Assembly: GCA_021777225.1 (NCBI GenBank)
Contig: JAJYDQ010000031.1
Coordinates: 12,501 to 46,213, forward strand
Origin: Deltaproteobacteria bacterium
Lineage (GTDB): Bacteria > Desulfobacterota > Desulfomonilia > Desulfomonilales > Desulfomonilaceae
Reading direction: 5' to 3'
Length of the DNA: 33,713 nucleotides
Shown here in pieces: positions 10,607-33,500 of this stretch. The notes under the pieces are model-generated. The model saw only the letters and a list, made by a program, of their open reading frames with translations, did not search any database and was not told the DNA's origin. The position numbers and the translations under genes are program-made. Position 1 is the stretch's first letter, and every line of letters starts with the position of its first letter.

Positions 10607-10639
10607 ATAAAAATCTACCGGCAGCCTGTACGGGAAAAG

Positions 10640-11587: not shown

Positions 11588-11620
11588 TTTAGTTTTCTCC
11601 AGAAAATGATCGCTTTCTTA

Positions 11621-12646: not shown

Positions 12647-12680
12647 ATTAACCTCCTTAATTATGTTGGTCGGCGACGAG

Positions 12681-15308
12681 TCAAGCGGCCGGCGTCTTAC
12701 CGGGCGTGGCTAATTTCACTCGACAAACATTCGTATTTTCATCGAAAAGCCTATATACACCCATACCTGGAAAGTTCACCGGGACAAAGATCAATCCTCG
12801 ACTGATTTTGTATGAAATCTCCACCGGGGCCTCAAAGGAGCCCCTAGGGGACATGACTTCGATCAAATCTCCCTGTTTAAGTCCCAGGTCTTTGGCGTCG
12901 TCAGGATTAATTTCAACATTTCCGCATGAACAGAGGCCTAACAGGTTCATTGATCGCGTAGAAGTTGATCCAAAATGGTACATGGAACGTCCTACTACCA
13001 TTTCAAACGGATAATCCTCAGCATCCTTGTCAGGGGCTTCCCAAGTCCTGACTGGCGCAAATGAGAATGGTTTTTCAGAAGAAAGACGCTCGGGATTTGT
13101 CGAAAACGGGCGCAAGATTTTACCATTACCTTCCAGGTCCGGAAGTGTGATGCCTTTGTAAGTTGGTATTGTCCGGGAAATTTCGCTCAGGACATCAGCC
13201 GACCTGAAATAACCCATGGGATGTCCCATTGTCTTGGCAAGCTCCTCGAGAATAGACCAATCCGGCATCGTCGGTCCCAACGGCGGGATTACCTGCGCCA
13301 ACCGCTGAATTCGATGCTCGATGTTGGTCATGGTTCCTTCCTTTTCAGCAAATGACGCCACAGGAAAAACACAGTGGGCTAGTTCCGCTGTTGGGCTCAT
13401 AAACATGTCCTGAATGACAAGCAACTCCGCCTTTTTTAGCGCTGACGCCCAGCGTCCGGCATTTGGATAATCAGTTAGAGGATCCGCTCCTGCTATATAT
13501 ATAGCCCTAACTTCCCCGCTTTCCAGACCTCTTGCGATTTCCGTGGCCGTCTTTCCTTTGCTGTACGGAAGCTTCGCCTTCCAAGTTTTTTCAAAAAGAT
13601 CCCTCACAGCAGCCATGTCCTGGTAGCCAGGCATGTATTCAGGCATCACACCCATATCACACAGGCCAACAATGTTGCCTTTTTCGAATATGGGATAGAC
13701 TCCCGAGTTAGAGCGTCCCATTGCGCCAGTTAGGAGAGCGAGATTCACCAGATTCATCACGCACTGGAGGCCATTCTCCTGGAGGATCACGTCTCCTCCA
13801 AAAATTATTGACGCTGTCGAAGCCTCCGCGAATATCCTGGCGGCCTCCTCAAGTTCTTCGGCCGACAGTCCGGTTCTCTTCAGAATTCCCTTTAGCGGAA
13901 TTTTATCAAGCAGGCCCTTCATCGGAAGAAAATTCGTCGTCCTGTCCCTGACAAATTTACGGTCCCAAAGATCAAGATCGAGAATGATCTTCATCATTCC
14001 CAATGCCAGTTCACTCTCGGAGTAAGGCCTGATTCGCAATCTTGTCCGAGCAAAGGGGTCCAGACTGGTTTGACGCGAATTGGCGACTATTACGTTGCTG
14101 TCGTAACGGCGAGACGCTATCTTGATCTTCCAACCCAAAGCAGGGGTTTCTTCCACTGGATCAATCCCGATGACCAGGACCGCCTCTGTCTTCAGAAGTT
14201 CTTCCAGTGTGTTTGGGGTTCCCTTGACTCCACAAGTCAGTTCCATGGCCCGTTGCACTCGCAAGAAACTGAACCGTGCTTCGCTGTCGATATTGTTGGT
14301 TCCAATTACTGATCGGAAAAATTTCTGGAAGGCGTAACAGTCTTCATTGGTTAATCTTGGTGAGGCCAATCCGGCAATACTGTCCGGTCCTGATTCCAGG
14401 ATAATTTTTTTAAACTTCTCGGAAACATATGAGAGTGATTCTTCCCAGAATACAGGACGAAGGACCCCTCCCCTCCTGAGCCATGGCGAAACCAGACGGT
14501 CCTTGTTATGAACGAGATCATACCCAAACCGCCCGCCTACGCAGAGGTTGCCGCTATTGTGGGAAGCTGGATCAGTGGTTATCCGAAAAATCTTGTCGTC
14601 CTTGACATTCATCTCCATTCGGCATCCAGCCGAACAGAGCGTACATATTGTCGGAGTTTTTCTTAGTTCCCATGAACGCGCCCAGTTCTTGGACTCTTTG
14701 TATGACATGGCGCCGCTGGGACACGCCTCCACGCATTCACCGCAAAAATCACATTTTAGGACCCCGCCGTCTCGAGTATTGATACGGGCATTGTACCCCA
14801 GTTCCTGAAGGGCGAGCGCGCCGGCGCCTATAACCTCGTGACACACTTTTACACATCTTAAACAGGTTATGCACAAGTTGGGATTGTACTGTATCAACGG
14901 CCAGTTTTTGACTATCGAACCACTACGCCTCTCCATAAGGTATTCCGTTCCGGCGATTCCCAGCCGGTAAGTAAGCGTCTGGATTTCGCACTCTCCGGCG
15001 GCAGGACAAATCGGGCAATCGAGAGGATGATCCATAAGCACAAGCTTCATCACCTCTTCCCGGATATTTTTTACCTGAGGGGTGTCAGTGTGTACCTTCA
15101 TACCGTCCCTCACAACAGTGTTGCACGAGGTCATTGGACGGTGTACGCCTTCTATTTCCACTACACACATTCTGCATGAATCCGATGGAGTGATCTTCGG
15201 ATAATAACAAAGAGTAGGGATCCAAATCCCCGCTTGATTAGCAGCCTCGAGGATTGTCATCCCCTCGGAGGCGTTCACTTCAATATCGTCGATAGTTAGA
15301 AGAGGCAT
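12681..15308 (-). CDS. sfrA: NuoG/FdhA-like iron-sulfur molybdopterin-fold subunit, SfrA-like
   Basis: An 875-residue cytosolic protein. The N-terminus is a [2Fe-2S] domain (C34, C45, C48, C62), then a His-Cys cluster box (H94, C98, C101, C107), two [4Fe-4S] ferredoxin motifs (CITCLRCVKVC and CDFCGECVEAC, about 146-200), and a further cluster motif CTLCSAGC leading into the molybdopterin oxidoreductase fold with a C-terminal molydop-binding domain. Active formate dehydrogenases have Sec or Cys after NNxDxxARxC; here the matching stretch is TNNIDSEARFSFLRV with neither, so formate oxidation is unlikely, as in NuoG. Paired with the GltD-like subunit upstream (70-base gap), it matches the two-subunit SfrAB NADPH oxidoreductase of Geobacter. 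No NuoE- or hydrogenase-type partner is next to it. The start is ATG 15308 with AAGGA. The sfrA name is by architecture and pairing only. Confidence 0.78.
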   Translation of the reverse strand: MPLLTIDDIEVNASEGMTILEAANQAGIWIPTLCYYPKITPSDSCRMCVVEIEGVHRPMTSCNTVVRDGMKVHTDTPQVKNIREEVMKLVLMDHPLDCPICPAAGECEIQTLTYRLGIAGTEYLMERRSGSIVKNWPLIQYNPNLCITCLRCVKVCHEVIGAGALALQELGYNARINTRDGGVLKCDFCGECVEACPSGAMSYKESKNWARSWELRKTPTICTLCSAGCRMEMNVKDDKIFRITTDPASHNSGNLCVGGRFGYDLVHNKDRLVSPWLRRGGVLRPVFWEESLSYVSEKFKKIILESGPDSIAGLASPRLTNEDCYAFQKFFRSVIGTNNIDSEARFSFLRVQRAMELTCGVKGTPNTLEELLKTEAVLVIGIDPVEETPALGWKIKIASRRYDSNVIVANSRQTSLDPFARTRLRIRPYSESELALGMMKIILDLDLWDRKFVRDRTTNFLPMKGLLDKIPLKGILKRTGLSAEELEEAARIFAEASTASIIFGGDVILQENGLQCVMNLVNLALLTGAMGRSNSGVYPIFEKGNIVGLCDMGVMPEYMPGYQDMAAVRDLFEKTWKAKLPYSKGKTATEIARGLESGEVRAIYIAGADPLTDYPNAGRWASALKKAELLVIQDMFMSPTAELAHCVFPVASFAEKEGTMTNIEHRIQRLAQVIPPLGPTMPDWSILEELAKTMGHPMGYFRSADVLSEISRTIPTYKGITLPDLEGNGKILRPFSTNPERLSSEKPFSFAPVRTWEAPDKDAEDYPFEMVVGRSMYHFGSTSTRSMNLLGLCSCGNVEINPDDAKDLGLKQGDLIEVMSPRGSFEAPVEISYKISRGLIFVPVNFPGMGVYRLFDENTNVCRVKLATPGKTPAA

Positions 15309-15378
15309 TTTTCGGTCCTTGTATTTTGGAAACGAATTTTACGCTCTAACCGGCTTATCAAAACAATTTGAGTAATTC

Positions 15379-17355
15379 TCAAGACGCCGCTTTATCGACC
15401 GCTAAAAGGATAAGATGAAAACATCGCAGACAACGACTTGCTTCTATGAATGAACCTTTTTGAGTAAGCCCCGAATCAACTTCACGGAAACTATCTATTC
15501 TTTCAAGTGGTTCAAGTTTCATCGTCGAAACCTTTCCGCCTTCCCTGGATGGTGTCCGAGCCGTAACCAGGACCCCGTGATTCTCTTCAATCTTGGCTAT
15601 TAAGTCCTCCATCCACTGACTATCGGATGGATTACATTTACCCGTGTTCACATATTCATGGATCATTCTCGCCGCCCTTTTGCCTCCTGCCAGCGCGTGC
15701 ACTACGGTCAGAGGTCCGCTAACCACATCTCCAGCGGCGAATATTCCGGGTCTCGAAGTCATCATGGTTGACGGATCTACTTTGATCGTAACGTGACGGG
15801 TAATTTCTATTCCATCATCCGGGGAAATAAAATCCAATGCCGACGTTTGACCTATCGCCGGGATTAGTGTATCCGCTTCAAGAACAAATTCTGATCCTTG
15901 AACCGGGACAGGTCTTCTTCTGCCACTTTTGTCAGGTTCCCCAAGTTCCATTCTAATACACTTCAAGCCTGTCATCTTGTTGTCACGTTCAAGGATTTCG
16001 ATAGGCTGGGTTAGAAAATGGAACTCGATTCCTTCCTCTCCGGCGTCTTCCACTTCTTCAGGTTCGGCAGGCATTTCAGACTGTGTCCTGCGATAAACAA
16101 TTGAAACTTTGGGAGCGCCCATTCTTAGACATGTCCTGGCACAGTCAATTGCCGTATTTCCGCCACCAACAATGATCACATTTTCGCCTAAGGACACTTC
16201 CTTGCCCAGGTTAATATTCCTCAGAAAATCTATTCCTCCCGAAAATACCCCGGCGATTCCATCGGTTTCACCCTTTATTCCCAACGGGGTTGATTTGTGT
16301 GAACCCAGACCTAGAAAAACTGCCCGATAACCTTCCCTAAACAGATCATTAATTCCAAAATGCTTTCCAAGCTTGGCCCCGCGCTTGACCGTGACGCCGA
16401 GGTCGCACAGAATATCAATTTCCCGTTCTAGAACATCCCTTGGCTGACGATATGGGGGAATCCCCACAGCCACCATTCCACCGGATTCCGGAAGATCTTC
16501 AAAGATTGTTACAGGATGACCGAGTCGATTCAGATAGTATGCGGCGGATAAACCAGCGGGGCCAGCCCCTATAACCGCTATTGGATCGCCGGTCAACTCG
16601 ACCTTTTCCAAAGGAGGTTTTAGGTGATGAATCATCTCGTAGTCGGCGGCGACACGTTTCAAGGTCTTGATTGGTATTGCAACATCACCCATGTTGGCTA
16701 CACTACACGCCTTCTCACATGGGGCCGGACAGATTCGTCCAGTGATTCCGGGAAGAGGCATTTCCCGGCGAATGATTTCAAGCGCCTCCCCATAACGAAG
16801 TTCCTGCAACATTTCCACGTAACCTGGGATGTTGATATGGCAAGGGCAAGTGTTCATGCACGGCGCCGAAACACTTCCCACGAAACGAAACGGACCATCA
16901 GAGACCCCATGTTTTACGGCGTTCAGGAAATGCTCTCTAAAATGTTCAAGGCCGTCTGAAAGCAGCTCTCCGGCGCTTTGGCAGACCGAACATTTTGCCG
17001 CGTCATTGAGTACCCCAGCCATACGTCTCAGAAGGACCAAATCCGATTCCTGTCCCTCGCCCCGCATGATACGATCCAGGGTTACCAATATAAGCTTGGA
17101 GCCCTTTATTCCCGTGATGCACTTTCCACAGCAGTATTTGGTCTGAATCTGCTTGACGTACTCCGCCACCATAGGAACAAAATCAAAGTTTTCCTTGAAT
17201 TGCAGGAAACCCTTTCCGCTCATTACCGCTACAACGTTGTCCGGAAAACTCTTCTCGGAGGGGAAATCTTCAGGACCACCGCCTTCGGTAACATCCTCCC
17301 CGTTCTTGCGGTACCTCAATACCTTGCCCCAACGTCCAAGAATAATGGACTTCAT
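15379..17355 (-). CDS. sfrB: NuoF-C/GltD fusion flavoprotein, SfrB-like NADPH oxidoreductase subunit
   Basis: A 658-residue protein. The first part has a NuoF-type C-terminal Fe-S region (KYCCGKC near residue 80, CSVCQSA near 125). It is followed by a GltD-like unit: two cysteine sets for [4Fe-4S] clusters (CMNTCPCHINIPGY and CPAPCEKAC), an FAD-binding motif VIGAGPAGLSAAYYL, an NADPH-binding motif VIIVGGGNTAIDCAR, and the C-terminal FAD motif IFAAGDVVSGP. A last cysteine pair is RCLRC near the end. It should oxidise or reduce NADP(H) via FAD and pass electrons to the SfrA-like subunit. The start is ATG 17355 behind GGAGG; a TTG four codons earlier overlaps that site. It is the first gene of the long redox-signalling unit and has a good candidate promoter about 190 bases upstream. 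Confidence 0.82.
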   Translation of the reverse strand: MKSIILGRWGKVLRYRKNGEDVTEGGGPEDFPSEKSFPDNVVAVMSGKGFLQFKENFDFVPMVAEYVKQIQTKYCCGKCITGIKGSKLILVTLDRIMRGEGQESDLVLLRRMAGVLNDAAKCSVCQSAGELLSDGLEHFREHFLNAVKHGVSDGPFRFVGSVSAPCMNTCPCHINIPGYVEMLQELRYGEALEIIRREMPLPGITGRICPAPCEKACSVANMGDVAIPIKTLKRVAADYEMIHHLKPPLEKVELTGDPIAVIGAGPAGLSAAYYLNRLGHPVTIFEDLPESGGMVAVGIPPYRQPRDVLEREIDILCDLGVTVKRGAKLGKHFGINDLFREGYRAVFLGLGSHKSTPLGIKGETDGIAGVFSGGIDFLRNINLGKEVSLGENVIIVGGGNTAIDCARTCLRMGAPKVSIVYRRTQSEMPAEPEEVEDAGEEGIEFHFLTQPIEILERDNKMTGLKCIRMELGEPDKSGRRRPVPVQGSEFVLEADTLIPAIGQTSALDFISPDDGIEITRHVTIKVDPSTMMTSRPGIFAAGDVVSGPLTVVHALAGGKRAARMIHEYVNTGKCNPSDSQWMEDLIAKIEENHGVLVTARTPSREGGKVSTMKLEPLERIDSFREVDSGLTQKGSFIEASRCLRCFHLILLAVDKAAS

Positions 17356-17541
17356 TTGGTCCTCCAATCAGTGGGAAGCTCCAAAATCTATCGAGCAAAC
17401 ATATCCAGGAACAAATCAGCAGAAAAATTTTTAAAGGAATCTCTAACTATTATTGATTATCTTAAAGAAGTTTTCGAATTATCTTTCTTTCGGCATTTTT
17501 AACCTAACGCGTCACTTGAGGGCGCTGCTTAGTGGAAAGTC

Positions 17542-22762: not shown

Positions 22763-24349
22763 CTATAACGGCCGTCCACGGATCATTTCAGCGACTAAAG
22801 GATTTAACCGTTGCATTGCTATCCATTCTATTACCGGAACGCACACAGCGTCTCCAAATCCAAAAAGTGCCCGGCCTTTATTTACTGAGAGATTATAATC
22901 ACCTGCGCCCATTAGTCGAGCGCATTCCAATGGTGTCAAAAGACGAACGAGGAATTTTCCATTACCTGCTTTGACAAGTATTTGCCTGGCGCTTCCACCC
23001 CGGGGGGTCCTCAGACAGCCCGCTATCCCGTCAGTTCGGACTTCAGCCATAGACTTTCCGTTTCTCATTCTTCTGAAAACAGTTCCATAGGACCAATTCG
23101 GTCTTGAGATCATTTCTTCGATAAGATTTCTGTGTCTAGGGTTCATCTGATTCAGCAGGTATTCAGTCCTGTCATGACTCCACCATTCGGGGGCGTCATC
23201 CGGGAAGTCTTTCAGGACATCCTTTAGTTCAGCCATTGATGTTTCTATTTCCGGCAGATTTTTAACACCCCAACGGATTTCATTATTGTCACGAATAAAG
23301 TCGAGTAACTTCTTCGGTCTAAAACGGTTCTCAATTAATTGAATGTTTGACTTACCTTTGAAGCATGTCTCAGTGTCTTCGATTTGCGCTACAACGAAAA
23401 TCCTTGGTCTGCTTTGCGGGACAAACCACGCGGCGTCCACAATGAACGGGTCCACGGAATATCCGAGCCTGTTCAGAGTTAACATAGCGTCCCTGAAATC
23501 CTGACCTTTATTCGAATTGAGAAAACCGGGGACATTTTCTATGAGGACCATTGGGGGTCGTCTATAGGCCATGTCCTCAAGCAACTTTACAAATCCCCAG
23601 AATGCGGACGACTGTTTTCCTTTGAGCCCATTTCTGGAACCCGCCACTGACAGGTCGTTACAAGGAAATGACGCTGTAGCGAGTGTCACATTTGGGATTT
23701 TATCAGCGGAGATTTTATGGATATCGGACAGGTCGAACAGTTCTTGGGTATCCTGAAAGTGTCTGGAATACATGTCGTGTTTGTTGGGGTCTATGTCATT
23801 CGCGTAAGCGACTCTCCAACCATGACGTTCCAGGGCCATTCGCACAAGACCTATTCCTGCGAAGAATTCTGCGAAAGTCTTGTGAGGCGCAAAAGAAAAT
23901 GGGGTCTGTTTAGGGCCATTATAGGCTATATCAATGGTGAGAGTGATACACCTATCCAGGTTTTTCTTAATGTCACTCTCCCAGAACCGCAAGACGGTCC
24001 ACCCTTCTGATATCAATGCGGCAGTGGAACGACAGTCTCGTTCCATGTTTTTTCTTATCTTCGTTAACCAGTAATCTCGTGATTTTGAGCGAGTGAATTG
24101 GCTTTCAAGCGATGACAGTTTACGACGGACCCATTGTCCCCCGTGCCAGAAGTCACCATCGATGAAGATCGCTAATTTCTTGGCGCGAATAACTATATCG
24201 GGCTTACCTGGAATGTCCTGGGGACAAATCCTGTACCGAACACCTTGGCCCCAAAGGGCTTTACGAAAGAGCATTTCCGGCTCCGTGTCCCTTGAGCGCA
24301 CCCTTCCCATTATTTCCGAAATATTTCTTGGCAAATCAGTCTTCGTCAA
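22763..24349 (-). CDS. Vsr endonuclease fused to C5-cytosine DNA methyltransferase
   Basis: A protein of about 528 residues. The N-terminal 150 residues are a Vsr mismatch endonuclease: RSRDTEPEMLFRKAL, IPGKPDIVI with the catalytic Asp, FIDGDFWHGGQW, and KIRKNMERD then GWTVLRFWES. The zinc-binding cysteines of E. coli Vsr are absent. The rest is a C5-MTase: motif I FAEFFAGIGLVRMAL, motif IV SFPCNDLS with the catalytic Cys, motif VI ENVPG, motif VIII SRPRIFVVA, a target region, and motifs IX-X at the end. Methylation followed by repair of T:G mismatches would be joined in one chain. I chose TTG 24349, since residues before the first ATG (24310) still match Vsr; that ATG is the main alternative. 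The 5' end overlaps the hybrid kinase stop. No restriction enzyme is adjacent. Confidence 0.88.
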   Translation of the reverse strand: MTKTDLPRNISEIMGRVRSRDTEPEMLFRKALWGQGVRYRICPQDIPGKPDIVIRAKKLAIFIDGDFWHGGQWVRRKLSSLESQFTRSKSRDYWLTKIRKNMERDCRSTAALISEGWTVLRFWESDIKKNLDRCITLTIDIAYNGPKQTPFSFAPHKTFAEFFAGIGLVRMALERHGWRVAYANDIDPNKHDMYSRHFQDTQELFDLSDIHKISADKIPNVTLATASFPCNDLSVAGSRNGLKGKQSSAFWGFVKLLEDMAYRRPPMVLIENVPGFLNSNKGQDFRDAMLTLNRLGYSVDPFIVDAAWFVPQSRPRIFVVAQIEDTETCFKGKSNIQLIENRFRPKKLLDFIRDNNEIRWGVKNLPEIETSMAELKDVLKDFPDDAPEWWSHDRTEYLLNQMNPRHRNLIEEMISRPNWSYGTVFRRMRNGKSMAEVRTDGIAGCLRTPRGGSARQILVKAGNGKFLVRLLTPLECARLMGAGDYNLSVNKGRALFGFGDAVCVPVIEWIAMQRLNPLVAEMIRGRPL

Positions 24350-27300
24350 TGGTCTTTCGGACCATCTCCAGGAGTTCCCTAATATCAAACGGCTTATCGA
24401 TAAACCCCTTTGCACCGATACCTGATAGTTCTTTAGCCTTGCCATTAGCAGCGTACCCGCTCGCAATGACAGCCTTGACCTTCGGGTTAATACTCAATAA
24501 GGTTTCGAGTAACCGGCGACCACCCATGACAGGCATGTTGAGGTCCATGATTACCAGCTTAATTCGTTCCTGATGCTTTTCGTAGATATCAATCGCCTCT
24601 TTGCCGTTTGAAGCGGTAATCACAATGTAGTTGGCTTCTGTCAACATTCTAGAGGAGAGTTCCGTAACGTTCGGCTCATCATCAACCACCAGTATGGTTT
24701 CAGATCGGCCAGTTGGTAGTTCCTTGGTTTCAGCCTCTTTTACATCCGGGACATCTTCGATCGCCGGGAAATAGATCTTGAATGTAGTGCCCACTGACAG
24801 TTCGCTATAACAGGCTATCGCTCCGCCGTGCTGTTCCACTATCCCGTAAACCACAGACAGCCCAAGCCCTGTTCCTTTGCCCTGTTCTTTTGTGGTAAAG
24901 AATGGCTCGAAAATGCGATTTGCTGTCTCTGGATCCATTCCGGTCCCTGTATCCGTAACTGAGAGAAGCACATACCGTCCTGGTTTAGTTCCAAGGCGCG
25001 CACGGCAGTCTTCCTCATCCAGCATTATGTTCTTTGTCTCGATAACAAGTCTGCCGCCACCCGGCATGGCGTCCCTTGCGTTTATCGCGAGGTTCATCAA
25101 TATCTGTTCTATTTGTGTCGAATCGCCGTTTATGACATGCAGATCATCGGCCACGAAAAGTTCTATCTCTATTGTTTTGGGAATGGTATGTGCGAGCAGA
25201 GATCGAAATTGTTCGACAATTTTATTCAGGTTCGCCGGCTGAAGTCTAGCCGGCGTGTTCCTACTGAACAAAAGTATTCCCCGGACCAATTGAGCGCCGC
25301 TTGTGGCTGCCCGGTACATTTTCCCCAAATCATCTCGATGTCGCCTACTGAGTGTCTCATCAGCCAGAATAAGATCTGAGTAGCCGATAACAACCTGAAG
25401 CAAGTTGTTGAAATCATGGGCGATGCCGCCTGCGAGTCTCCCTATCGCCTCCATTTTCTGCGCCTGGAATAGTTGGGAAGACAGTTTAAGATGCTCGGTT
25501 ATGTCTCGTTTCAAGCCTACAAAACTGACTATCATTCCATTTGAGTCTCGAACCGGTGAAATCGTGGTGTCCTCATAATAAAGACTGCCGTCCTTTTTCT
25601 TGTTGGTGATACGTCCGGACCAGGTCTTCCCGGCTGTTACAGTACCCCATAATTCCTTGTAAAAGGATTCGTCATGCTCGCCACTCTTGAATACTCGCGG
25701 GTTGTTTCCAATCAGCTCCAACCTGTCATACCCCGTGATGTTTTCCAGAGCTGGGTTGACGTACTGGATCACCCCTGCGGCGTCAGTAATCATGACACCC
25801 TCCGCAGCCTGTTCTACTGCCGTAGCGAGCCTCCTTTGCGCTTCCTCCGATCGTTTACGCCCGGTGATGTCCTGAACTACCGCTATATGAAAGTCAGGAA
25901 CTTCTCCTGGTTCCCACATTGGTGAGACGGTAAGATTGACCCAAACTATTGACCCATCTTTGCGGTAATAACGCTTTTCCATGGAAAATTCCCTGATAGT
26001 TCCGGCGCATAACAGATTCATGTTATGCAGGTCAGTATCAAGGTCCTCCGGTACGGTTATAATCTGAAAGGTTATGTTTTCCATTTCGGGCTGGCTATAA
26101 CCGACAATGTCACAATACCTCTGATTTATACGTACAAAGCGTCCACTCCTGGTCTCAATTTGAGCAACACCAACGGCTGCCTGCTCGAATAACACTCGAA
26201 ATCTTTGTTCACTCTCCCGAAGTCTGTCCTCGGCTCGCCTACGTTCTGTTATGTCCTGCAAGACGCAGTGCGTTTGAACGAATTTTCCATCACCGTCGCG
26301 ACCTATCTTCCCGTCAAAAGAAGTAATGATTCGAGCCCCCGACTTGTGGACCATTTCGAAGTCGATCCCCCTCACTTCCCCCAATTCCAGGAAACGCGGG
26401 AACCTGCTCCTGAAAAGATCTATGTATTCCGGCGCCAGAAAATCGCCAAACCATCTACCAATAACCTCGGACCTTTCGTAGCCGAGTGTATCCAGCCAAG
26501 CCTGGTTAACTTCTATGAACCGCCCATCAGCGTCAAGGGATTGGTAACCCAGTGGACTCTTTTCATAAAAAAGACGAAACCTGTTTTCGCTTTCACGCAG
26601 GAACTCGGCTGCCTCATATCTTTCCCGATAAAAAGCGGCGTTCCGCCTCTTCCAGATCCAACCCAGGCTTGTTCCCGCTCCAACAATGAGGCTAAATACG
26701 AGAAAAACAAGCAACCACAATTGTTCTCTCAACGGACCATAAACCTCGGAAACTTCCATCCTGGCCACCAGAAACCAGGGAGATCCCGGGATAGGAGCCA
26801 CATCGGCAATTACCGGGAAGCCTTGGTAGTCTTTGCCCTGAACTATGCCTTGCTGCCCCAGTATCGCCTTGACTGCCGGGTATTCTTGCCTTTCTAGTGA
26901 GACGCGGAATTCAAGGGCGCTGTTTTTTCTGAATCTAAGTTCACTCAGCGACACAGCGTCATTGCCTTCCCTTCCAACAATTAGTGTTTCAGCGGTCCGA
27001 CTCGGCGTAGGCCATGATTGTATAAGGGGGTTCAGATATTGGTTCGGGTCAATTCGCATCACGAGAGCGCCGACTGACCTAGCGCCATTTTGCGGGTCCA
27101 AAACCGGAACAATCAGATTGATGTAAATGCTCTTATCGTGGTTGTCTCGGTAGAAATTCGTAAATTCGATCTTTCCTAATCGCATGGCTTTTAAAGCATG
27201 TTTTCTCTCAAATTCACAGGTCGGCGTAGACGATTCAGGAATCGCGAGCCGGTCAACACCGTGGCTATCCAGTAGGGAAATCCGATCATACTTGTATCGA

Positions 27301-27626
27301 GCTTGCACGCTACCAAGCCACATTCTAAGTTGTTTTTGTCCAGCTACATCGTCCGGGTGTTCGAAAAAGCTCAGGACCAGGCTGGAAAAGTTTGAGTTTT
27401 CAAAAAAAATTGCGGCGTCTGCCAAACGTTCTTTTCTCCATTGAACGATTTGATCCACCTTGAGGTTCGCAATCGAGGATAGCTGGTTTTCAATACCAGT
27501 CCGGAATTTTATTTCGTAATTACGATAAAACAGGTATCCGCCCGTAAAGATGCCAAAGGCCAGGACGACGAAAATCATGATCGTCACATATAAAGATCGT
27601 CGTTCATACCCGCTGGGAGTCTTCAT
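24336..27626 (-). CDS. Membrane hybrid histidine kinase (sensor domain, three PAS, HisKA, HATPase, REC)
   Basis: A 1096-residue protein. A membrane segment (about residues 13-34), a large extracytoplasmic domain of about 260 residues resembling the dCACHE ligand-binding fold, and a second membrane segment (about 300-323) are followed by three PAS domains with linking helices (about 345-465, 470-590, 600-715; two end in DITERRR or DITGRKR), HisKA with the histidine in GIAHDFNNLLQ, HATPase (NLAINARDAM, DTGTGMD, GKGTGLGLSVVYG) and a C-terminal receiver (LVVDDEPN, VIMDLNMP, FIDKPF). The start is ATG 27626 behind AAGG. It overlaps the Vsr-methyltransferase start, so they may share a transcript. 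The CACHE-type domain suggests a small organic acid or amino acid ligand, but none can be named. No response regulator with an output domain is nearby. Confidence 0.93.
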   Translation of the reverse strand: MKTPSGYERRSLYVTIMIFVVLAFGIFTGGYLFYRNYEIKFRTGIENQLSSIANLKVDQIVQWRKERLADAAIFFENSNFSSLVLSFFEHPDDVAGQKQLRMWLGSVQARYKYDRISLLDSHGVDRLAIPESSTPTCEFERKHALKAMRLGKIEFTNFYRDNHDKSIYINLIVPVLDPQNGARSVGALVMRIDPNQYLNPLIQSWPTPSRTAETLIVGREGNDAVSLSELRFRKNSALEFRVSLERQEYPAVKAILGQQGIVQGKDYQGFPVIADVAPIPGSPWFLVARMEVSEVYGPLREQLWLLVFLVFSLIVGAGTSLGWIWKRRNAAFYRERYEAAEFLRESENRFRLFYEKSPLGYQSLDADGRFIEVNQAWLDTLGYERSEVIGRWFGDFLAPEYIDLFRSRFPRFLELGEVRGIDFEMVHKSGARIITSFDGKIGRDGDGKFVQTHCVLQDITERRRAEDRLRESEQRFRVLFEQAAVGVAQIETRSGRFVRINQRYCDIVGYSQPEMENITFQIITVPEDLDTDLHNMNLLCAGTIREFSMEKRYYRKDGSIVWVNLTVSPMWEPGEVPDFHIAVVQDITGRKRSEEAQRRLATAVEQAAEGVMITDAAGVIQYVNPALENITGYDRLELIGNNPRVFKSGEHDESFYKELWGTVTAGKTWSGRITNKKKDGSLYYEDTTISPVRDSNGMIVSFVGLKRDITEHLKLSSQLFQAQKMEAIGRLAGGIAHDFNNLLQVVIGYSDLILADETLSRRHRDDLGKMYRAATSGAQLVRGILLFSRNTPARLQPANLNKIVEQFRSLLAHTIPKTIEIELFVADDLHVINGDSTQIEQILMNLAINARDAMPGGGRLVIETKNIMLDEEDCRARLGTKPGRYVLLSVTDTGTGMDPETANRIFEPFFTTKEQGKGTGLGLSVVYGIVEQHGGAIACYSELSVGTTFKIYFPAIEDVPDVKEAETKELPTGRSETILVVDDEPNVTELSSRMLTEANYIVITASNGKEAIDIYEKHQERIKLVIMDLNMPVMGGRRLLETLLSINPKVKAVIASGYAANGKAKELSGIGAKGFIDKPFDIRELLEMVRKTIDED

Positions 27627-27744: not shown

Positions 27745-27931
27745 GAGTTCATATCCCTAGAGTTTCTTGACGGAAAAAGTGACATACGTGATGATCAAGT
27801 CCGTGGAAGTGTGCCAGATAACATCCATCACTTGTTCGGTTATCAGGCCATATTTTTCTTCGTTCGCCCGCAACGTTTCCTCCGCTGTTTTCGTACAGGA
27901 GGTTCTCTTCGGTCTTTTTCAGACCTGTCAT
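27745..27931 (-). pseudogene. Decayed PAS-domain sensor remnant
   Basis: The minus strand starts ATGACAGGTCTGAAAAAG at 27931, then shifts frame; in the second frame it reads LRANEEKYGLITEQVMDVIW followed by HTSTDLIITYVTFSVKKL, a typical PAS entry sequence, ending at TAG (27757-27759) and then GYEL. With one frameshift and one stop it cannot make a PAS domain. It is the 5' stub of a gene that once followed the chimeric PAS fragment. Confidence 0.7.
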
Positions 27932-28212
27932 TGAAATATCGCAAACGGGTTATGCCAAAAACCCGTATCATTTCTTATCTTCTTGCAGGAAGAGCAAATA
28001 GGAATAAATCCACTGAGTTTCTTAACTTGAGCGAGGGCATTTTGAAGCTCAATTATCAGGCTGGACTTCTCTTCCTCCACCTGCTTGCGGTAAGTGATGT
28101 CACGATTACCGGCTCGTCGCCCCAACCAACGGCCGTCATCCCCGAAAACGGGCTGACTACGGTGTTCAATCCAACGCTCCTCTCCAGAGTGGGTGAAAAT
28201 ACGAAAGTCAAC
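27913..28212. repeat. Direct repeat copy A (partner of 29346-29795)
   Basis: Two blocks match copy B: 27913-27960 with 29346-29393 (48 bases, identical) and 27976-28212 with 29559-29795 (237 bases, 5 mismatches by my count, no gaps). Copy A lacks the roughly 165 bases between the blocks, which in copy B encode the C-terminus of the DUF1638-like sensor. Copy A is therefore a duplicate carrying an internal deletion. Confidence 0.95.
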
Positions 28213-28371
28213 TTCAATCTGATGGACCGGAAATTCGTGTATGATCTCTTCAGGGGATTTTTCTCGGAGTTCCAGTGTCGCATCCTGAGACTTTGCGAGT
28301 TTCTCCTCAGCAGAGTGTCTTAGAATGCTTTGGCTAGCGCCATTCTTGTCCCGGTTCTTTATGTCCGCCAT
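27928..28371 (-). pseudogene. Chimeric truncated PAS sensor fragment (147 codons, open frame)
   Basis: The frame is open from ATG 28371 (AAGGA upstream) to 27928. Residues 1-55 come from the N-terminus of a different sensor type: EEKLAKSQDATLELREKSPE followed by HEFPVHQIE resembles the common linker that normally continues into a PAS domain. It then jumps directly into VDFRIFTHSGEERW, the second half of the PAS domain of the sensor at 29400-31088, and follows it to SGFIPICSSCKKIR, where the rest of the Cys-motif tail is deleted and replaced by NDTGFWHNPFAIFQ. It has no complete sensory or output domain, so I treat it as a rearrangement product, although it could still be translated. Confidence 0.7.
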
Positions 28372-28569: not shown

Positions 28570-28920
28570 TTACGGGTGAGGAGTTATTGCTAAGATTGTG
28601 ATTTGATCCTCTTCAGGACCGTAGCACCAGAACAGACGATAAGCGCCTGGAGTTTTTTGTTGGATGTAAGCCTCGAAGACCTTCCCTCCGAGTTTGTATG
28701 GATGGTCTTTTGAGCGGAATTCATGGGTGCTCAATCCTGGATAACGTAAATCCTCTTTCAACAAATCCAAGCATTTCTTGACTTGCTTGAAGAGACCCTC
28801 TGCCCGCGATGCTTTGATCCTTTTCTTCTTTAGCCTCGCGTCCAAAGAGGAAATGGCTTTGGCTCTCAACTGATCGTAGGTGTCCTGTGCCTTTTCAGTC
28901 CAGACAAGTGTGAATGCCAT
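28570..28920 (-). CDS. RelE/ParE-superfamily toxin
   Basis: A 116-residue basic protein: MAFTLVWTEKAQDTYDQL, a Lys/Arg-rich helical middle, then KLGGKVFEAYIQQ, YRLFWCYGP and ITILAITPHP, the strand pattern of the RelE-type toxin fold that acts as an mRNA interferase or in related toxins. The ATG at 28920 lies one base after the stop of the antitoxin gene (TAG-G-ATG) and uses a GAGG inside the antitoxin's last codons, so the two are translationally coupled. A longer frame reaching upstream into the antitoxin gene is not the likely start. Whether it cleaves RNA or targets gyrase cannot be told from sequence. Confidence 0.82.
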   Translation of the reverse strand: MAFTLVWTEKAQDTYDQLRAKAISSLDARLKKKRIKASRAEGLFKQVKKCLDLLKEDLRYPGLSTHEFRSKDHPYKLGGKVFEAYIQQKTPGAYRLFWCYGPEEDQITILAITPHP

Positions 28921-28921
28921 C

Positions 28922-29191
28922 CTAGTCCTCAAGCTGATCGGCGAGCGCCTGGTCGGCATCAAGATCAGGAGGAGATGCGCTGAATTGCTTTAATTCGGCC
29001 TGTTCCAATCCGATTTCGAGCAAGGCTTTTGCTTCAGGACTCTTGTACAGCCAAAGTTCTCTCTCCGGTATGACAGCGGCTAGTTCCAGCCTGATCTCCG
29101 TTTCTCCGATCTTTTCAAAAATGCAAGTCTTGTTGGCAAACTCCTTACCGAGATTGATCCGTCCTCGTGAATCTACCGTCTTGGTCTCCAT
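28922..29191 (-). CDS. AbrB/SpoVT-type antitoxin
   Basis: An 89-residue protein whose N-terminus METKTVDSRGRINLGKEF is the swapped-hairpin AbrB DNA-binding motif; the C-terminal half is acidic (DLDADQALADQLED), as expected of a toxin-binding tail. The start is ATG 29191, seven bases after GGAGG; an ATG two codons earlier sits almost on the ribosome site. It would repress its own promoter and neutralise the RelE-like toxin encoded one base downstream. The pair lies between two direct repeats derived from the neighbouring sensor gene, in an otherwise decayed region, suggesting insertion or retention through its addictive property. Confidence 0.8.
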   Translation of the reverse strand: METKTVDSRGRINLGKEFANKTCIFEKIGETEIRLELAAVIPERELWLYKSPEAKALLEIGLEQAELKQFSASPPDLDADQALADQLED

Positions 29192-29345
29192 GATCATTCC
29201 TCCCTGGATCAAGGATATCATTACAACCCATTAGAGGCAACAGGGTTAGTGGGGTACTCCCACCGACATCTGACATCCGTGATGGCCGTATGTCGTTGCA
29301 GGCGAGGTTCCTGTTTCAGATAAAATCAATGACATTTCGCTTCCA

Positions 29346-29795
29346 TCTTTTTCAGACCTGTCATTGAAATATCGCAAACGGGTTATGCCAAAACCCCTGC
29401 TATTTCTTTTTGTCCTTCTCTAAACGACCAAGAACTTCATCAGCAATCTCTGGATACAATTTTCTAATACAGTCAGGACAAATGCCGTGACTGAATAGTG
29501 CTTCCGAGTGCTCACTCACATATTCTTCGACCTGGCGCCAATAGCCCTTGTCATCGCGTATCTTCTTGCAGGAAGAGCAAATAGGAATAAATCCACTGAG
29601 TTTCTTAACTTGAGCGAGGGCATTTTGAAGCTCAATTATCAGGCTGGACTTCTCTTCCTCCACCTGCTTGCGGTAGGTGATGTCACGATTGCTGGCTCGT
29701 CGCCCCAACCAACGGCCGTCATCCCCAAAAACGGGCTGACTGCGGTGTTCAATCCAACGCTCCTCTCCAGAGTGGGTGAAAATACGAAAGTCAAC
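29346..29795. repeat. Direct repeat copy B, including the 3' end of the DUF1638-like sensor gene
   Basis: This is the parental version: the intact 3' part of the sensor gene (to 29400) plus the first codons of a following gene (ATGACAGGTCTGAAAAAG read on the minus strand from 29364), which here is cut off after a few codons. Copy A at 27913-28212 repeats both blocks. The two copies bracket the toxin-antitoxin genes in direct orientation, so recombination could excise about 1.5 kb. Confidence 0.95.
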
Positions 29796-31088
29796 AGCGT
29801 GATGGTCGTCCGAGTCCGTTAAGTCGAGGTGATTAACTACGATGGACGAATCTTCAGGGTGCACAATTTCAGTGATCAATTTGGGATTGTTGAGAAACTC
29901 CTCAGGGTGGTAGCCGGTGATGCGTTCGCACGATGGCGAATTATAGATGAGGCTGCCATCAGGCGCTACCCAGTATTCCCAGTCATAGGTAAAGTCCGCA
30001 ACAGTCCTGAACTTTTCCTCACTCTCCCTTAACCGGTTCTGGGTCAGGGTCATCTGTTGGTAGGTGCGAGCGTTTTCTACCGCTAATCCAAAAACACCAA
30101 CAATCTGAAGGGCAAGATTGAGATATCGTTCCTTGTGTTCCGGGAATGTTATGTCGTCAATGATTAGAATACCTACGTGTGCGTCTCGACCTTTGATCGG
30201 AATAGAAAAACCGTTTCCTGATGCTGACCACAAGTAATCATCACTGCCTTGGGCATCTTCATCGACCGCCTCTGGGTAACGGGGGATTAGAAAGGGTATC
30301 CATCCAGCGCTTTCTTGCCCGGTAAGTGGCAAGTAGTTGACTGTCCGGGCAGCGAAAAGCATCTTCATCAAATCCGTGACTTTCTCAATCACATCGGTTT
30401 CAGTCATAGCAGGAGTCAGGCCGCTAAGCAGATCCAGCGCCATCGCATAATTAGCTGTTTCAGAAGATGTTTTCTTTGAAACTTCATCTGACATCCTCTT
30501 TTGAAATTCCAGCCTGTATTCCGAAACTATTCTATTAATGAACAATCGACAGAAATCCAATCCTATCGGTATTATTTCATAGGGGAGCCCCACAAAATCT
30601 GCAAGATGCTCCAGCTCTTCGCGAGCCTGAGCGCTAACCCCCGTGTCCAAGAGAAGAAGTCTGGAAATGGACTCACCGAACATCTGTCGAGCGGTTTCCT
30701 TGTCTAGTCCAAGACTGTCCAACCATTGTCGCCATCGAAGCGCCTGACCGGAAGTCAGAATGTAATTGCCACTTTTGAGATATCCGTCTGTGAAGGTGGG
30801 GCTTGCTACCAGGTCAAAACATTGAGCCATCCTATGGATTACGGTGTGCGCTAACGTTTCAGGTGGATTGACCATTTCTCGCAGGCAATAGCAACCCAGA
30901 ACATGAATCTTGGCGAAATCTCCGAGGTCTCCTTGAATCTGACCTATATTTTCCCATGTCATTCGCGGACGGCCACAAGTTGAAGGAAAACAGGAGCCGG
31001 TGACGTCGTCAAATCCCTCCGAGCTTAAGACTGCTCGCAATTCCGGTTCAAAATTAGCACAGGTTAGAATGCATAGCTTATCCGGCAT
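29400..31088 (-). CDS. DUF1638-like / GAF / PAS sensor with C-terminal Cys-motif tail
   Basis: A 562-residue soluble protein. Residues 1-200 resemble DUF1638 proteins found beside corrinoid methyltransferases: LCILTCANFEPEL, a Cys pair in LGCYCLRE, GNYILTSGQALRW, and LLLLDTGV. A GAF-like domain (about 215-350, ending FGLAVENART) and a PAS domain (about 365-485; FRTVADFTYDWEYWV, GERWIEHRSQPV, RDITYRK) follow. The tail PICSSCKKIRDDKGYW then HGICPDC has two CxxC pairs and recurs at the end of many deltaproteobacterial PAS proteins. There is no kinase, cyclase or DNA-binding domain, so output must pass through a partner or the Cys tail. The start overlaps the UroD-like gene by 11 bases. The sequence suggests a sensor tied to the corrinoid system; the DUF1638 assignment was made by eye. 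Confidence 0.75.
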   Translation of the reverse strand: MPDKLCILTCANFEPELRAVLSSEGFDDVTGSCFPSTCGRPRMTWENIGQIQGDLGDFAKIHVLGCYCLREMVNPPETLAHTVIHRMAQCFDLVASPTFTDGYLKSGNYILTSGQALRWRQWLDSLGLDKETARQMFGESISRLLLLDTGVSAQAREELEHLADFVGLPYEIIPIGLDFCRLFINRIVSEYRLEFQKRMSDEVSKKTSSETANYAMALDLLSGLTPAMTETDVIEKVTDLMKMLFAARTVNYLPLTGQESAGWIPFLIPRYPEAVDEDAQGSDDYLWSASGNGFSIPIKGRDAHVGILIIDDITFPEHKERYLNLALQIVGVFGLAVENARTYQQMTLTQNRLRESEEKFRTVADFTYDWEYWVAPDGSLIYNSPSCERITGYHPEEFLNNPKLITEIVHPEDSSIVVNHLDLTDSDDHHAVDFRIFTHSGEERWIEHRSQPVFGDDGRWLGRRASNRDITYRKQVEEEKSSLIIELQNALAQVKKLSGFIPICSSCKKIRDDKGYWRQVEEYVSEHSEALFSHGICPDCIRKLYPEIADEVLGRLEKDKKK

Positions 31089-32139
31089 AGTCGTTGATCC
31101 AATTCAGGGGATACTGTCCCCATTTGTAGACAGCGTCAGATATGGCTATCAAAACTTCATCAGGGACCTGCCATGGAATTTCACCATGATTGTCGGAAAG
31201 AATGAAGCCACCACCAGCTCCCGCCTTGGCGATGGCGTCTTTCACCATCTTTTCAGCGTGTTGTACAGTCCAGCGACGCATTTCAATGCCGTTCAAGTTT
31301 CCCAATACCGTTAACTTGCCTTTACAAGCGGCTTTAGTTTCAGCTAGGTCCTCTGTGACACTTGCGCTCACTATTGCTGTTCCTGTGGCGACCACGTCCG
31401 ACAGGATAGGCAAGCATATGCCGGAAGAAAAATGTGTAGCCGTGGGTCCCTTAATTCGGGACAAAGTGCCGTTTGCTATAGGAAACCCTGTTTTCAAATA
31501 CAGGTCCCTTGGAATAATAGTCGGGGAAGATACTGGATCAAAGTAACAAATCGCCGTGGCCCCGGCCGCGAGTTGAGCGTTAGCCCATTCGACGCAAAAC
31601 TCTTCATTAACTCTCATTAATTGCTCAAATAAACCATGATACTCATAAATTAGCTCAATGTAATTGTCAAAGCCCATCTGCATAACTGGAACTGAGAACG
31701 GCGACATAACCACACCGATGATGGGAACCTCGTCACCAACTCTTTCTTTGAGCAAAGCCAGCGTCTTTAAGACCTCTAAGAGACGCCTACATTCCATTAC
31801 TCGTGGAGGCTGAAGGCCCTTAATGTTGTTCAAGGACTTAAGAAAAGGTAGACCCGAATTAGGCGGACCGTCATCATGAAACACTACCTCGCCGCCCCAG
31901 GCCTCAATTTCAATTGAGCCGTAGAAGAAAGGATACAGACAGTCGTGGTCGTATTTTTTTCGCATGCGTAGCTGTCCCTCTGCCACGTTCTCAGCCTTGG
32001 AGAAATATTCCTCGATGGTCAGGCCCAACTCCTTCGCGCCATGCATGGTTACACAAAGAAAAACAGGCACACGGTCCGGCTCTTGATGCGACAAAGTTTT
32101 TAGGACTCGCTGCATGGAATTCATGTGGGAAGATGTCAT
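31078..32139 (-). CDS. UroD/MtaA-family protein (corrinoid-linked methyltransferase fold)
   Basis: A 353-residue protein of the uroporphyrinogen decarboxylase fold. The first residues (MQRVLKTLSHQEPDRVPV) match the start of MtaA/CmuA/UroD-like enzymes, and the barrel strands run to GFILSDNHGEIPWQVPDEVL. Its position directly after a corrinoid protein (4-base ATGA overlap) points to methyl transfer to or from that corrinoid rather than haem synthesis. MtaA-type enzymes bind zinc with His-x-Cys and a later Cys. Here the first site reads THFSSG (His-x-Ser) and the later one DNHGEIPW (His or Asn in place of Cys), so metal binding must differ or be lost. The ribosome binding site is GGAGG. The substrate is unknown; a sensory rather than catalytic role is possible. 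Confidence 0.85.
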   Translation of the reverse strand: MTSSHMNSMQRVLKTLSHQEPDRVPVFLCVTMHGAKELGLTIEEYFSKAENVAEGQLRMRKKYDHDCLYPFFYGSIEIEAWGGEVVFHDDGPPNSGLPFLKSLNNIKGLQPPRVMECRRLLEVLKTLALLKERVGDEVPIIGVVMSPFSVPVMQMGFDNYIELIYEYHGLFEQLMRVNEEFCVEWANAQLAAGATAICYFDPVSSPTIIPRDLYLKTGFPIANGTLSRIKGPTATHFSSGICLPILSDVVATGTAIVSASVTEDLAETKAACKGKLTVLGNLNGIEMRRWTVQHAEKMVKDAIAKAGAGGGFILSDNHGEIPWQVPDEVLIAISDAVYKWGQYPLNWINDYAG

Positions 32140-32768
32140 CGGTCGCCTCCATCGATACTGTTCACTATCTTCACGGCATCAGACGCTGTTCGGCCCATGG
32201 CGTCAGCTCCGACCTCGACCCAAAGCTGATCATCGAAGCGGAAGGGAGCGCCTCCAACAATGATTTTAGGCTCGTGACCGGACTTGCGAAGCAAAGTCCT
32301 AACGTCCTTGATATGAAGAGCGGAAGGGAGCATAAGGGTGGAAATCAATAAAATTTGGATGTCGTCCTCAATGACTCTGTGAACAATTTCTTCAACTTCG
32401 ACATGACCATAGTCCAAGAGGCCCAGCCCCGCGCTTTTTAGCATCGAATAAACAATGCGCTTCCCCAGCATATGATAGTCCTCCAGCACAGCGATAGCCA
32501 TCTTCCGGGAAGGTTTCTGGTCAGTTTCTGCATAAGGAAAGATGTTTTCCACTAACTCTTCGCAGATACGGCCGCTCATGTAGACCTGAGATAAGGAAAC
32601 AGATCCGTCAAGCCACATTTGACCGATTCTGTCGAGAGTTGAAACTATAAGATGTTCTAAATGATTATTTGGAATCTTGGCTCTTTTCGCCTCAATAAGC
32701 GATTCCTGAGCTACCACCCTATCTACCGCCAACAGGGCCATCTCGAATCTTTTTTCCACTGTTGTCAT
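32136..32768 (-). CDS. Corrinoid (B12)-binding methyltransferase-type protein
   Basis: A 210-residue protein with the two-domain layout of MtaC/MtbC-type corrinoid proteins: a helical cap domain (residues 1-85, with IGQMWLDGSVSLSQVYMSG) and a Rossmann B12-binding domain. The DxHxxG motif that supplies the lower axial histidine is present (EDYHMLGK, about 97-104), as are the later VEEIVHRV, LISTLML and KIIVGGAPF segments, so base-off/His-on cobalamin binding is expected. It is the first gene of the three-gene unit, with the ribosome binding site GAGG before ATG 32768, and overlaps the UroD-like gene by 4 bases. It should carry a methyl group or act as the corrinoid module of a sensor. Confidence 0.92.
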   Translation of the reverse strand: MTTVEKRFEMALLAVDRVVAQESLIEAKRAKIPNNHLEHLIVSTLDRIGQMWLDGSVSLSQVYMSGRICEELVENIFPYAETDQKPSRKMAIAVLEDYHMLGKRIVYSMLKSAGLGLLDYGHVEVEEIVHRVIEDDIQILLISTLMLPSALHIKDVRTLLRKSGHEPKIIVGGAPFRFDDQLWVEVGADAMGRTASDAVKIVNSIDGGDR

Positions 32769-32849: not shown

Positions 32850-33028
32850 CCGGTTGCCTCAAACAATTTTTTGATAAAACCTCGAGCCTCTGCCTGCATC
32901 AATTCCCCAGCCACTCCCTATGTCTGATATCCACTCACCATGAGCGCTCTTGAATTCGGGTCCATGCCCAATAATGCTTCATGACACATTCTATCGCCCA
33001 TACTTGGAATTAACAGGTCAAGGAAGAT
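32850..33028 (-). pseudogene. Decayed receiver-domain fragment
   Basis: In a frame shifted by one from the preceding gene the minus strand reads IFLDLLIPSMGDRMCHE, then LLGMDPNSRALMVSGYQT, a stop at 32918-32920, then GVAGELMQAEARGFIKKLF. This follows the receiver pattern from the phospho-acceptor aspartate to the conserved lysine region (compare LLDLIMP, ASGY and AGAKGF in the neighbouring frame). It begins within the last codons of the gene at 33018-33500. It is a broken relic, not an expressed gene. Confidence 0.75.
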
Positions 33029-33500
33029 CGTTGTCCAGGATCTCACGAATCATAGTAAAAAGTTGTCTCATGTTGTACGGTTTTTGGACGAATCCCTTTG
33101 CTCCGGCCGCCATGACGCCATTAGCCGGTCCATGTTCGGAATAGCCGCTCGCTATAATAACCTTGGCATTGGATTCAACCTGGAGAATCTCTTCGAGGCA
33201 CTTTTTGCCATCCATTACGGGCATGATCAGGTCCAACAGGATTAATGAAATCCTTTCCTTCTCCACCCGGTATATTTCTAGCGCCTCTTTCCCGTTACTC
33301 GCCGTGATAACTTTGTAACCGAAGCTATCGAGAAGTTCCTCACCAAGCTCCCTGATAGACTCTTCATCATCCACCAGGAGAATTGTTTCTGTCCCACCTC
33401 GAATAGTCGTCTCAAAGGTTGCGATTTCTAACTCTTTTTCTGTCCGAGTTGCGGGAATGGCGTCTGAGGCGTTGATCACCAAATTCATTATGTAAGACAT
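33018..33500 (-). pseudogene. Truncated hybrid histidine kinase: receiver domain with ATPase deleted
   Basis: An open frame of 160 codons. It starts with the N box of an HATPase (MNLVINASDAIP), jumps at once to the linker that normally follows the ATPase domain ([26 protein letters not shown]) and continues with a complete receiver domain (acceptor Asp in LLDLIMPVMD, ASGY, AGAKGFVQKPY). About 100 residues between N box and linker, including all G boxes, are missing without loss of frame, and everything before the N box is lost too. An in-frame stop lies just before the ATG, and no ribosome binding site is evident. The receiver could still fold if expressed. It lies between receiver debris and a probable transposon end. 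Confidence 0.75.

Follow-up and report, generated by a model that had tools for sequence, protein, structure and literature searches.

The minus strand of a 33,713-nucleotide stretch of Deltaproteobacteria bacterium contig JAJYDQ010000031.1 (the window) encodes, at positions 29400–32768, a corrinoid protein, a URO-D/MtaA-fold protein and a sensor, which together probably constitute a horizontally mobile sensory input module assembled from recycled corrinoid methyltransferase parts. The three open reading frames (ORFs) of 210, 353 and 562 amino acids overlap by 4 and 11 nucleotides, as stated in the preliminary description of the locus, and all three are intact and retain their key residues. 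That description had proposed a sensing module rather than a normal catabolic methyltransferase system, a proposal supported here by fused kinase, cyclase and HD-GYP outputs and by the absence of catalytic partners. Signalling is the natural reading because the sensors of relatives are fused to a histidine kinase, a diguanylate cyclase or, in a sister type, an HD-GYP domain.

The three genes recur as a unit well outside the source genome. The decisive scan used the URO-D alignment only, against 84,980 species, and neighbours played no part in selection; the loci counted are the best 80 of 137 URO-D relatives. They span about 15 phyla of bacteria and archaea, with carriers among Thermodesulfobacteriota, Chloroflexota, Nitrospirota, Bacteroidota, Pseudomonadota, Bacillota, Verrucomicrobiota, Synergistota and methanogens, and including cable bacteria, Beggiatoa relatives, magnetotactic Nitrospirota, Geobacteraceae and sulfate reducers. 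Isolates among the carriers include Desulfocicer vacuolatum DSM 3385 (L155) and Geomonas sp. Red32 (L150). Such a spread points to a signal that is widespread where conditions are anoxic or redox gradients occur. The corrinoid gene lies directly upstream of the URO-D gene in 78 of the 80 loci, most often with a 4-nucleotide overlap, and the sensor gene lies directly downstream in 75. Recurrence of the three-gene order in about 75 of 80 loci is far beyond chance. Among the exceptions to the order, two loci sit at contig ends; L169 is arranged UroD-B12-sensor, and L164 has two corrinoid/URO-D pairs. The latter tandem module, B12-UroD-B12-UroD-sensor, comes from a gammaproteobacterial symbiont. 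Across loci, the distances of the three parts correlate with one another (Mantel r 0.59 and 0.64, 0/1000 permutations), and the parts therefore travel together. Within its own phylum the module is rare and scattered, being present in 3 of 395 genomes, and the URO-D tree mixes the phyla, needing 29 label changes against a minimum of 13. Such mixing is expected under lateral transfer, although paralogy and binning errors may also contribute.

A search with the sensor itself recovered the same arrangement. A protein search of 198 related genomes with the window sensor matched G012 (56% identity) and G164 (28%), with a DUF1638 match in G107, and corrinoid and URO-D genes precede each match. A DUF1638 scan of the 395 genomes of the phylum, with 40 regions inspected, revealed a sister type in which B12-UroD-DUF1638 is followed by hybrid kinases (L081, L082), while the ordinary context of DUF1638 is next to RACo (contig C135 of the source genome G000, L072, L084 and L108). 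DUF1638 is also found within proteins of 950–980 residues at L069:7740-10676 and L070:7671-10526, the L069 domain being fused to hydantoinase domains and adjoining URO-D and B12 genes. A scan of genome contigs with the sensor N-terminus gave no confirmed match, probably because the sensor is the fast-evolving part of the module; the URO-D protein is the slowest.

The corrinoid protein displays the B12-binding domain, cap domain and DxHxxG motif of methyltransferase corrinoid proteins of the MtaC/MtbC/MtgC type. Both Pfam domains score above cut-off, and the motif (DYHMLG), reported earlier to be intact, is kept in 78 of 78 corrinoid genes of module loci. The protein shares 42–51% identity with the module corrinoid proteins of L033/L032, falls below the curated corrinoid methyltransferase cut-off (TIGR02370, 69.6 against 215.3 bits) and shows weak similarity to a CarH model (expectation value, E, 7e-5).

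The URO-D protein is modelled with high confidence, and the nearest solved structure is MtaA (4ay7; E 7e-21, 23% identity, template modelling score 0.84). The best 80 of 137 relatives in the scan show 59–70% identity, the window protein is 58–69% identical to its 79 module homologues, and the mean column identity of the module alignment is 70%. The change of metal ligands noted previously is confirmed and is shared by the module homologues. The HxC of MtaA is aligned to H236-F-S238, and a distal His (H318) occupies the position of the third zinc Cys, so that H-x-C plus distal C is replaced by HxS/A plus distal His. Among the 80 module URO-Ds position 236 is His in 77, the Cys position of HxC is Ala, Ser or Gly in all, H318 is kept in 79 and E320 in all. 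Replacement of the HxC...C zinc site argues against MtaA-like thiol methylation, but the abundance of invariant polar residues favours a single specific ligand or reaction. MtaA/CmuA models score best for all 80 proteins; the window protein lies under the curated cut-offs of both TIGR01463 (104.4 against 235.4 bits) and NF040654 (92.8 against 400 bits).

The sensor, probably a soluble protein, combines an N-terminal DUF1638 domain with GAF and PAS domains, all as previously recognised, and terminates in a four-cysteine (Cys4) tail. The Pfam DUF1638 match covers residues 60–179 (39.5 bits against a cut-off of 27). Residues Cys10, Cys38, Cys68 and Cys90 of this domain are kept in 61/61, 60/61, 57/62 and 54/61 module sensors, respectively. 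Cys10, Cys68 and Cys90 of the window sensor align with Cys in 22/22 DUF1638 sequences compared, and the remaining conserved position is Cys in module sensors and His in other DUF1638 types. In the AlphaFold model (predicted local distance difference test, pLDDT, 92) each of the first four strands of the sheet is followed by one of the four Cys; judging by this secondary structure, they probably meet at one sheet edge and bind a metal or an iron-sulfur cluster. A profile search of the PDB with the sensor gave no credible match, and a fold search with the DUF1638-GAF model was taken up by matches to GAF domains. The GAF domain was not detected by the Pfam scan of the window sensor and is assigned from the AlphaFold model. 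It is kept in 61 of 65 untruncated module sensors, and its most conserved residues include no Cys, the residue that holds heme in the GAF domain of MsmS/RdmS-type sensors. The same Cys4 tail terminates five other module sensors (L123, L130, L131, L136 and L173), and sensors with this tail occur in Thermodesulfobacteriota, Nitrospirota, Riflebacteria and Verrucomicrobiota. The tail is also found, at 62–82% identity and with no Pfam match, in other proteins of the source genome (G000:C92, C40 and C10).

The outputs attached to the sensors are diverse. Across 72 sensors, the window copy included, Pfam recognises DUF1638 in 59, HATPase_c in 42, HisKA in 36, GGDEF in 12 and REC in 8. The outputs of the 65 untruncated sensors are dominated by histidine kinases (40), followed by GGDEF (11) and the Cys4 tail (5), and 5 of the 9 sensors with no recognised output have a kinase gene nearby. 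The earlier statement that the system has no kinase thus holds for the window sensor, in which the Pfam scan found no HisKA or HATPase, but not as a feature of the system. Outputs also vary among the related genomes: the G012 sensor carries HisKA-HATPase-REC, that of G164 a kinase and that of G107 an HD-GYP domain (HD_5, E 1e-39). Hybrid kinases flank several module loci with a kinase-less sensor, for example L124, L127 and L136. A sister-type module at L034:6705-10986 has DUF1638-GAF-PAS-PAS fused to an HD-GYP output (cyclic di-GMP phosphodiesterase).

No catalytic partner accompanies these genes. Neighbour clustering covered all genes within about 6–8 kb of the 80 loci, and the neighbours recurring in more than nine loci are signalling proteins, B12 and URO-D only; no recurrent metabolic neighbour that would name the ligand was found. 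No RACo occurs in the 80 loci to a distance of about 8 kb (1.08 Mb), whereas it adjoins ordinary DUF1638 genes such as that on contig C135 of the source genome. The source genome has five RACo copies, and no MTTB-type methyl-donor enzyme was found in it. Neither protein occurs among the window genes scanned, the region beyond 33713 not being visible. The reported lack of a methyl-donor enzyme is thereby upheld.

A mechanism can be proposed in which the corrinoid protein would carry a cobamide and the URO-D-fold protein would bind a small ligand in its highly conserved pocket. The latter would act on the cobamide by adding a methyl group to it, by taking one away or by altering its coordination. 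The DUF1638 domain would dock on the corrinoid protein and read the methylation or redox state of the cobamide, probably aided by the Cys4 metal or iron-sulfur site, and the change would be relayed through GAF (and PAS) to one of several exchangeable outputs, namely a histidine kinase, a diguanylate cyclase or, in the sister type, HD-GYP. In the window the output would be the Cys4 tail, whose target may be a separate protein. For B12-dependent methionine synthesis, Phaeobacter needs a DUF1638 protein together with a RamA-like protein (PMC5764234); from this need we infer that DUF1638 contacts corrinoid proteins and couples their state to the GAF domain and outputs.

The window copy may act through its Cys4 tail or through a PAS-PAS-PAS-HisKA-HATPase-REC hybrid kinase encoded about 1.8 kb downstream, whose membership of the module is uncertain. 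The same uncertainty applies to a short receiver protein on the upstream side, which is probably, from its sequence, the remnant of an internally deleted hybrid kinase. The contig (C14, 46213) stops where the window stops, and genes upstream of 33713 are unreadable because the contig ends there. The coordinates of these features are collected in Table 1. The 3' part of the sensor gene is partly duplicated downstream, 27903-28212 corresponding to 29336-29795 with the middle absent; the duplicate segments, one of 259 bp (95% identity) and one of 62 bp (94%), yield a truncated ORF at 27928-28371. Between the sensor and the duplicate, 28570-29221 holds two small overlapping ORFs of 99 and 130 amino acids that resemble a RelE/HigB-like toxin-antitoxin pair by eye and have no Pfam match above cut-off. 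Further away, a single ORF at 22763-24466 encodes a Vsr mismatch endonuclease and a C-5 cytosine DNA methylase, the two separated by a DUF559 match. At 7353-17367, a molybdopterin oxidoreductase that has Nuo-type iron-sulfur domains and a Pyr_redox/4Fe-4S partner is accompanied by a paralogous pair of REC-GAF proteins and by two histidine kinases.

Table 1 Features of the three-gene set and of possible partner genes, with positions in the window.
Feature	Position	Strand	Basis
Corrinoid (B12-binding) protein with cap domain, 210 aa	32136..32768	-	PF02310 E 1e-13, PF02607 E 6e-6, both above Pfam cut-off
DxHxxG cobalamin-binding motif, DYHMLG, residues 97-102	32463..32480	-	sequence
URO-D/MtaA-fold protein, 353 aa	31078..32139	-	PF01208 E 5e-54; AlphaFold pLDDT 96
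Altered metal site, HFSSG, residues 236-240; MtaA has HxC	31420..31434	-	alignment with MtaA LHIC
H318-G319-E320 at MtaA third zinc Cys	31180..31188	-	alignment with PGC of MtaA-like paralogue
Sensor, 562 aa, DUF1638-GAF-PAS-Cys4 tail	29400..31088	-	Pfam, AlphaFold model and sequence
DUF1638 domain, about residues 1-185, Cys10, Cys38, Cys68, Cys90	30534..31088	-	PF07796 E 6.7e-10
GAF domain, residues 205-350	30039..30476	-	AlphaFold model; VIA-align Z up to 13.8, to PDE5A GAF over 134 residues
PAS domain, residues 375-474	29667..29966	-	PF08447 (PAS_3) E 5e-16
C-terminal Cys4 tail, ICSSCKKIRDD...HGICPDC, CxxC...CxxC, residues 504-540	29454..29597	-	sequence
Possible partner: short receiver protein after histidine-kinase N-box-like stretch	33018..33500	-	PF00072 E 9e-25; NLVINASDAIP before REC
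Possible partner: PAS-PAS-PAS-HisKA-HATPase-REC hybrid kinase	24336..27626	-	Pfam; about 1.8 kb downstream

In the main rival explanation, the corrinoid and URO-D proteins form an ordinary methyltransferase pair, albeit an unusual one, that is transcribed together with its regulator. The URO-D protein would act as a single-component methyltransferase, as CmuA or MecE is thought to do, and the sensor would do no more than regulate it. The MtaA fold, the preference of all 80 URO-Ds for MtaA/CmuA models and the slow evolution of the URO-D protein favour this view, and in the mec cassette for dichloromethane a corrinoid protein and URO-D proteins likewise accompany a two-component system (PMC9768040). 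We nevertheless regard this explanation as unlikely. The scores fall far below curated cut-offs (104 against 235 bits), the zinc Cys ligands are lost, and neither RACo nor any other conserved enzyme neighbours the 80 loci within about 6–8 kb. Moreover, the signalling protein itself contains the accessory domain DUF1638, and its outputs vary, both of which simple regulation of a linked enzyme leaves unexplained. Several observations do weigh against the sensory module preferred here. Extreme conservation of the URO-D protein is equally expected of an enzyme, and with no RACo nearby a Co(II) corrinoid would need rescue by a distant RACo or by the DUF1638 domain. In addition, 11 of the 65 untruncated sensors have no recognised DUF1638 and mostly retain GAF, so DUF1638 may not be the sole reader, and the window copy itself carries no recognised catalytic output.

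B12 photosensors are known, and the module could instead sense cobamide or light, the corrinoid protein reporting cobamide supply or photolysis (CarH-like, with adenosylcobalamin) and the URO-D protein serving as structural partner. The universal corrinoid-binding motif (78/78) and the weak similarity to the CarH model point this way, but 70% column identity and numerous near-invariant polar residues are more than a purely structural partner would have to conserve, and the many carriers that are sediment anaerobes and sulfate reducers offer a poor setting for light sensing; such a sensor is very improbable. The slimmest chance is given to decay of the window copy through loss of a fused kinase like that of L032. 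This same-family relative has HisKA-HATPase-REC, and 27954-28212 holds a 95%-identical partial duplicate of the sensor 3' part, with further fragments close by. Against decay, the three frames are intact with key residues conserved, and the Cys4 tail is found at the end of five further module sensors from four phyla and in other proteins of the source genome, which makes it a recurrent output. The idea that a kinase was merely lost by chance from the window sensor is weakened by the same recurrence. Decay of this one copy is in any case compatible with a sensory module.

Known roles of cobamides are those of enzyme cofactor, riboswitch ligand and photoreceptor chromophore. A methyltransferase-type corrinoid complex acting as a sensor would, if true, add a principle of chemical sensing, and could detect compounds, for example methylated ones, that are poorly handled by ordinary binding domains. 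The balance is even on a wider proposal, under which bacteria and archaea would share a new class of input to signal transduction. A dedicated corrinoid protein would carry a cobamide that is switched chemically by a ligand-specific methyltransferase-like protein, a DUF1638 metal or iron-sulfur domain would read the state of the cobamide and drive kinases, diguanylate cyclases or HD-GYP enzymes, and the ligand would be the same across about 15 phyla. The input principle, with its function as read from genomes, would be categorically new. The module also offers a concrete role for DUF1638 and predicts a Cys4 (or Cys3His) metal site in it. In agreement with the earlier remark that no system of this make-up was known, no description of the operon was found in the open-access literature searched, subscription papers and preprints being mostly outside that scope.

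None of the nearest systems named here feeds kinases or cyclases from a corrinoid/URO-D pair. In CarH-type B12 photoreceptors a cobalamin-binding domain serves signalling, as proposed for the module, but these are one-component DNA-binding repressors with no known URO-D partner or DUF1638. The MsmS/RdmS sensor kinases of Methanosarcina sense redox, thiol or heme inside the kinase and are not known to have a dedicated corrinoid/URO-D pair as input. They resemble the module in that sensor kinases are tied to corrinoid methyltransferases (PMC11784639). The MtaA/MtbA methylcobamide:coenzyme M methyltransferases (4ay7) with MtaC/MtbC display the same folds and the same pairing of a URO-D protein with a two-domain corrinoid protein. 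In contrast to them, the module has lost the HxC...C zinc site, scores below the family cut-offs, has no methyl-donor enzyme or RACo, and ends its operon in a signalling protein. The mec cassette (MecA kinase, MecB corrinoid protein, MecC/MecE URO-D proteins) likewise places corrinoid, URO-D and two-component proteins in one cluster, but its kinase is reported with a PocR domain, it contains MTI, MTII and a transporter, and no DUF1638 is mentioned (PMC9768040). Finally, DUF1638 lies beside a corrinoid protein, as in the module, in the RamA/RACo systems that serve split methionine synthase and the demethylation of glycine betaine (PMC5764234, PMC12478193). There the domain is free-standing, accompanied by RACo and has His at its fourth conserved position, whereas in the module, which has no RACo, that position is Cys and the domain is usually fused to GAF and signalling outputs.

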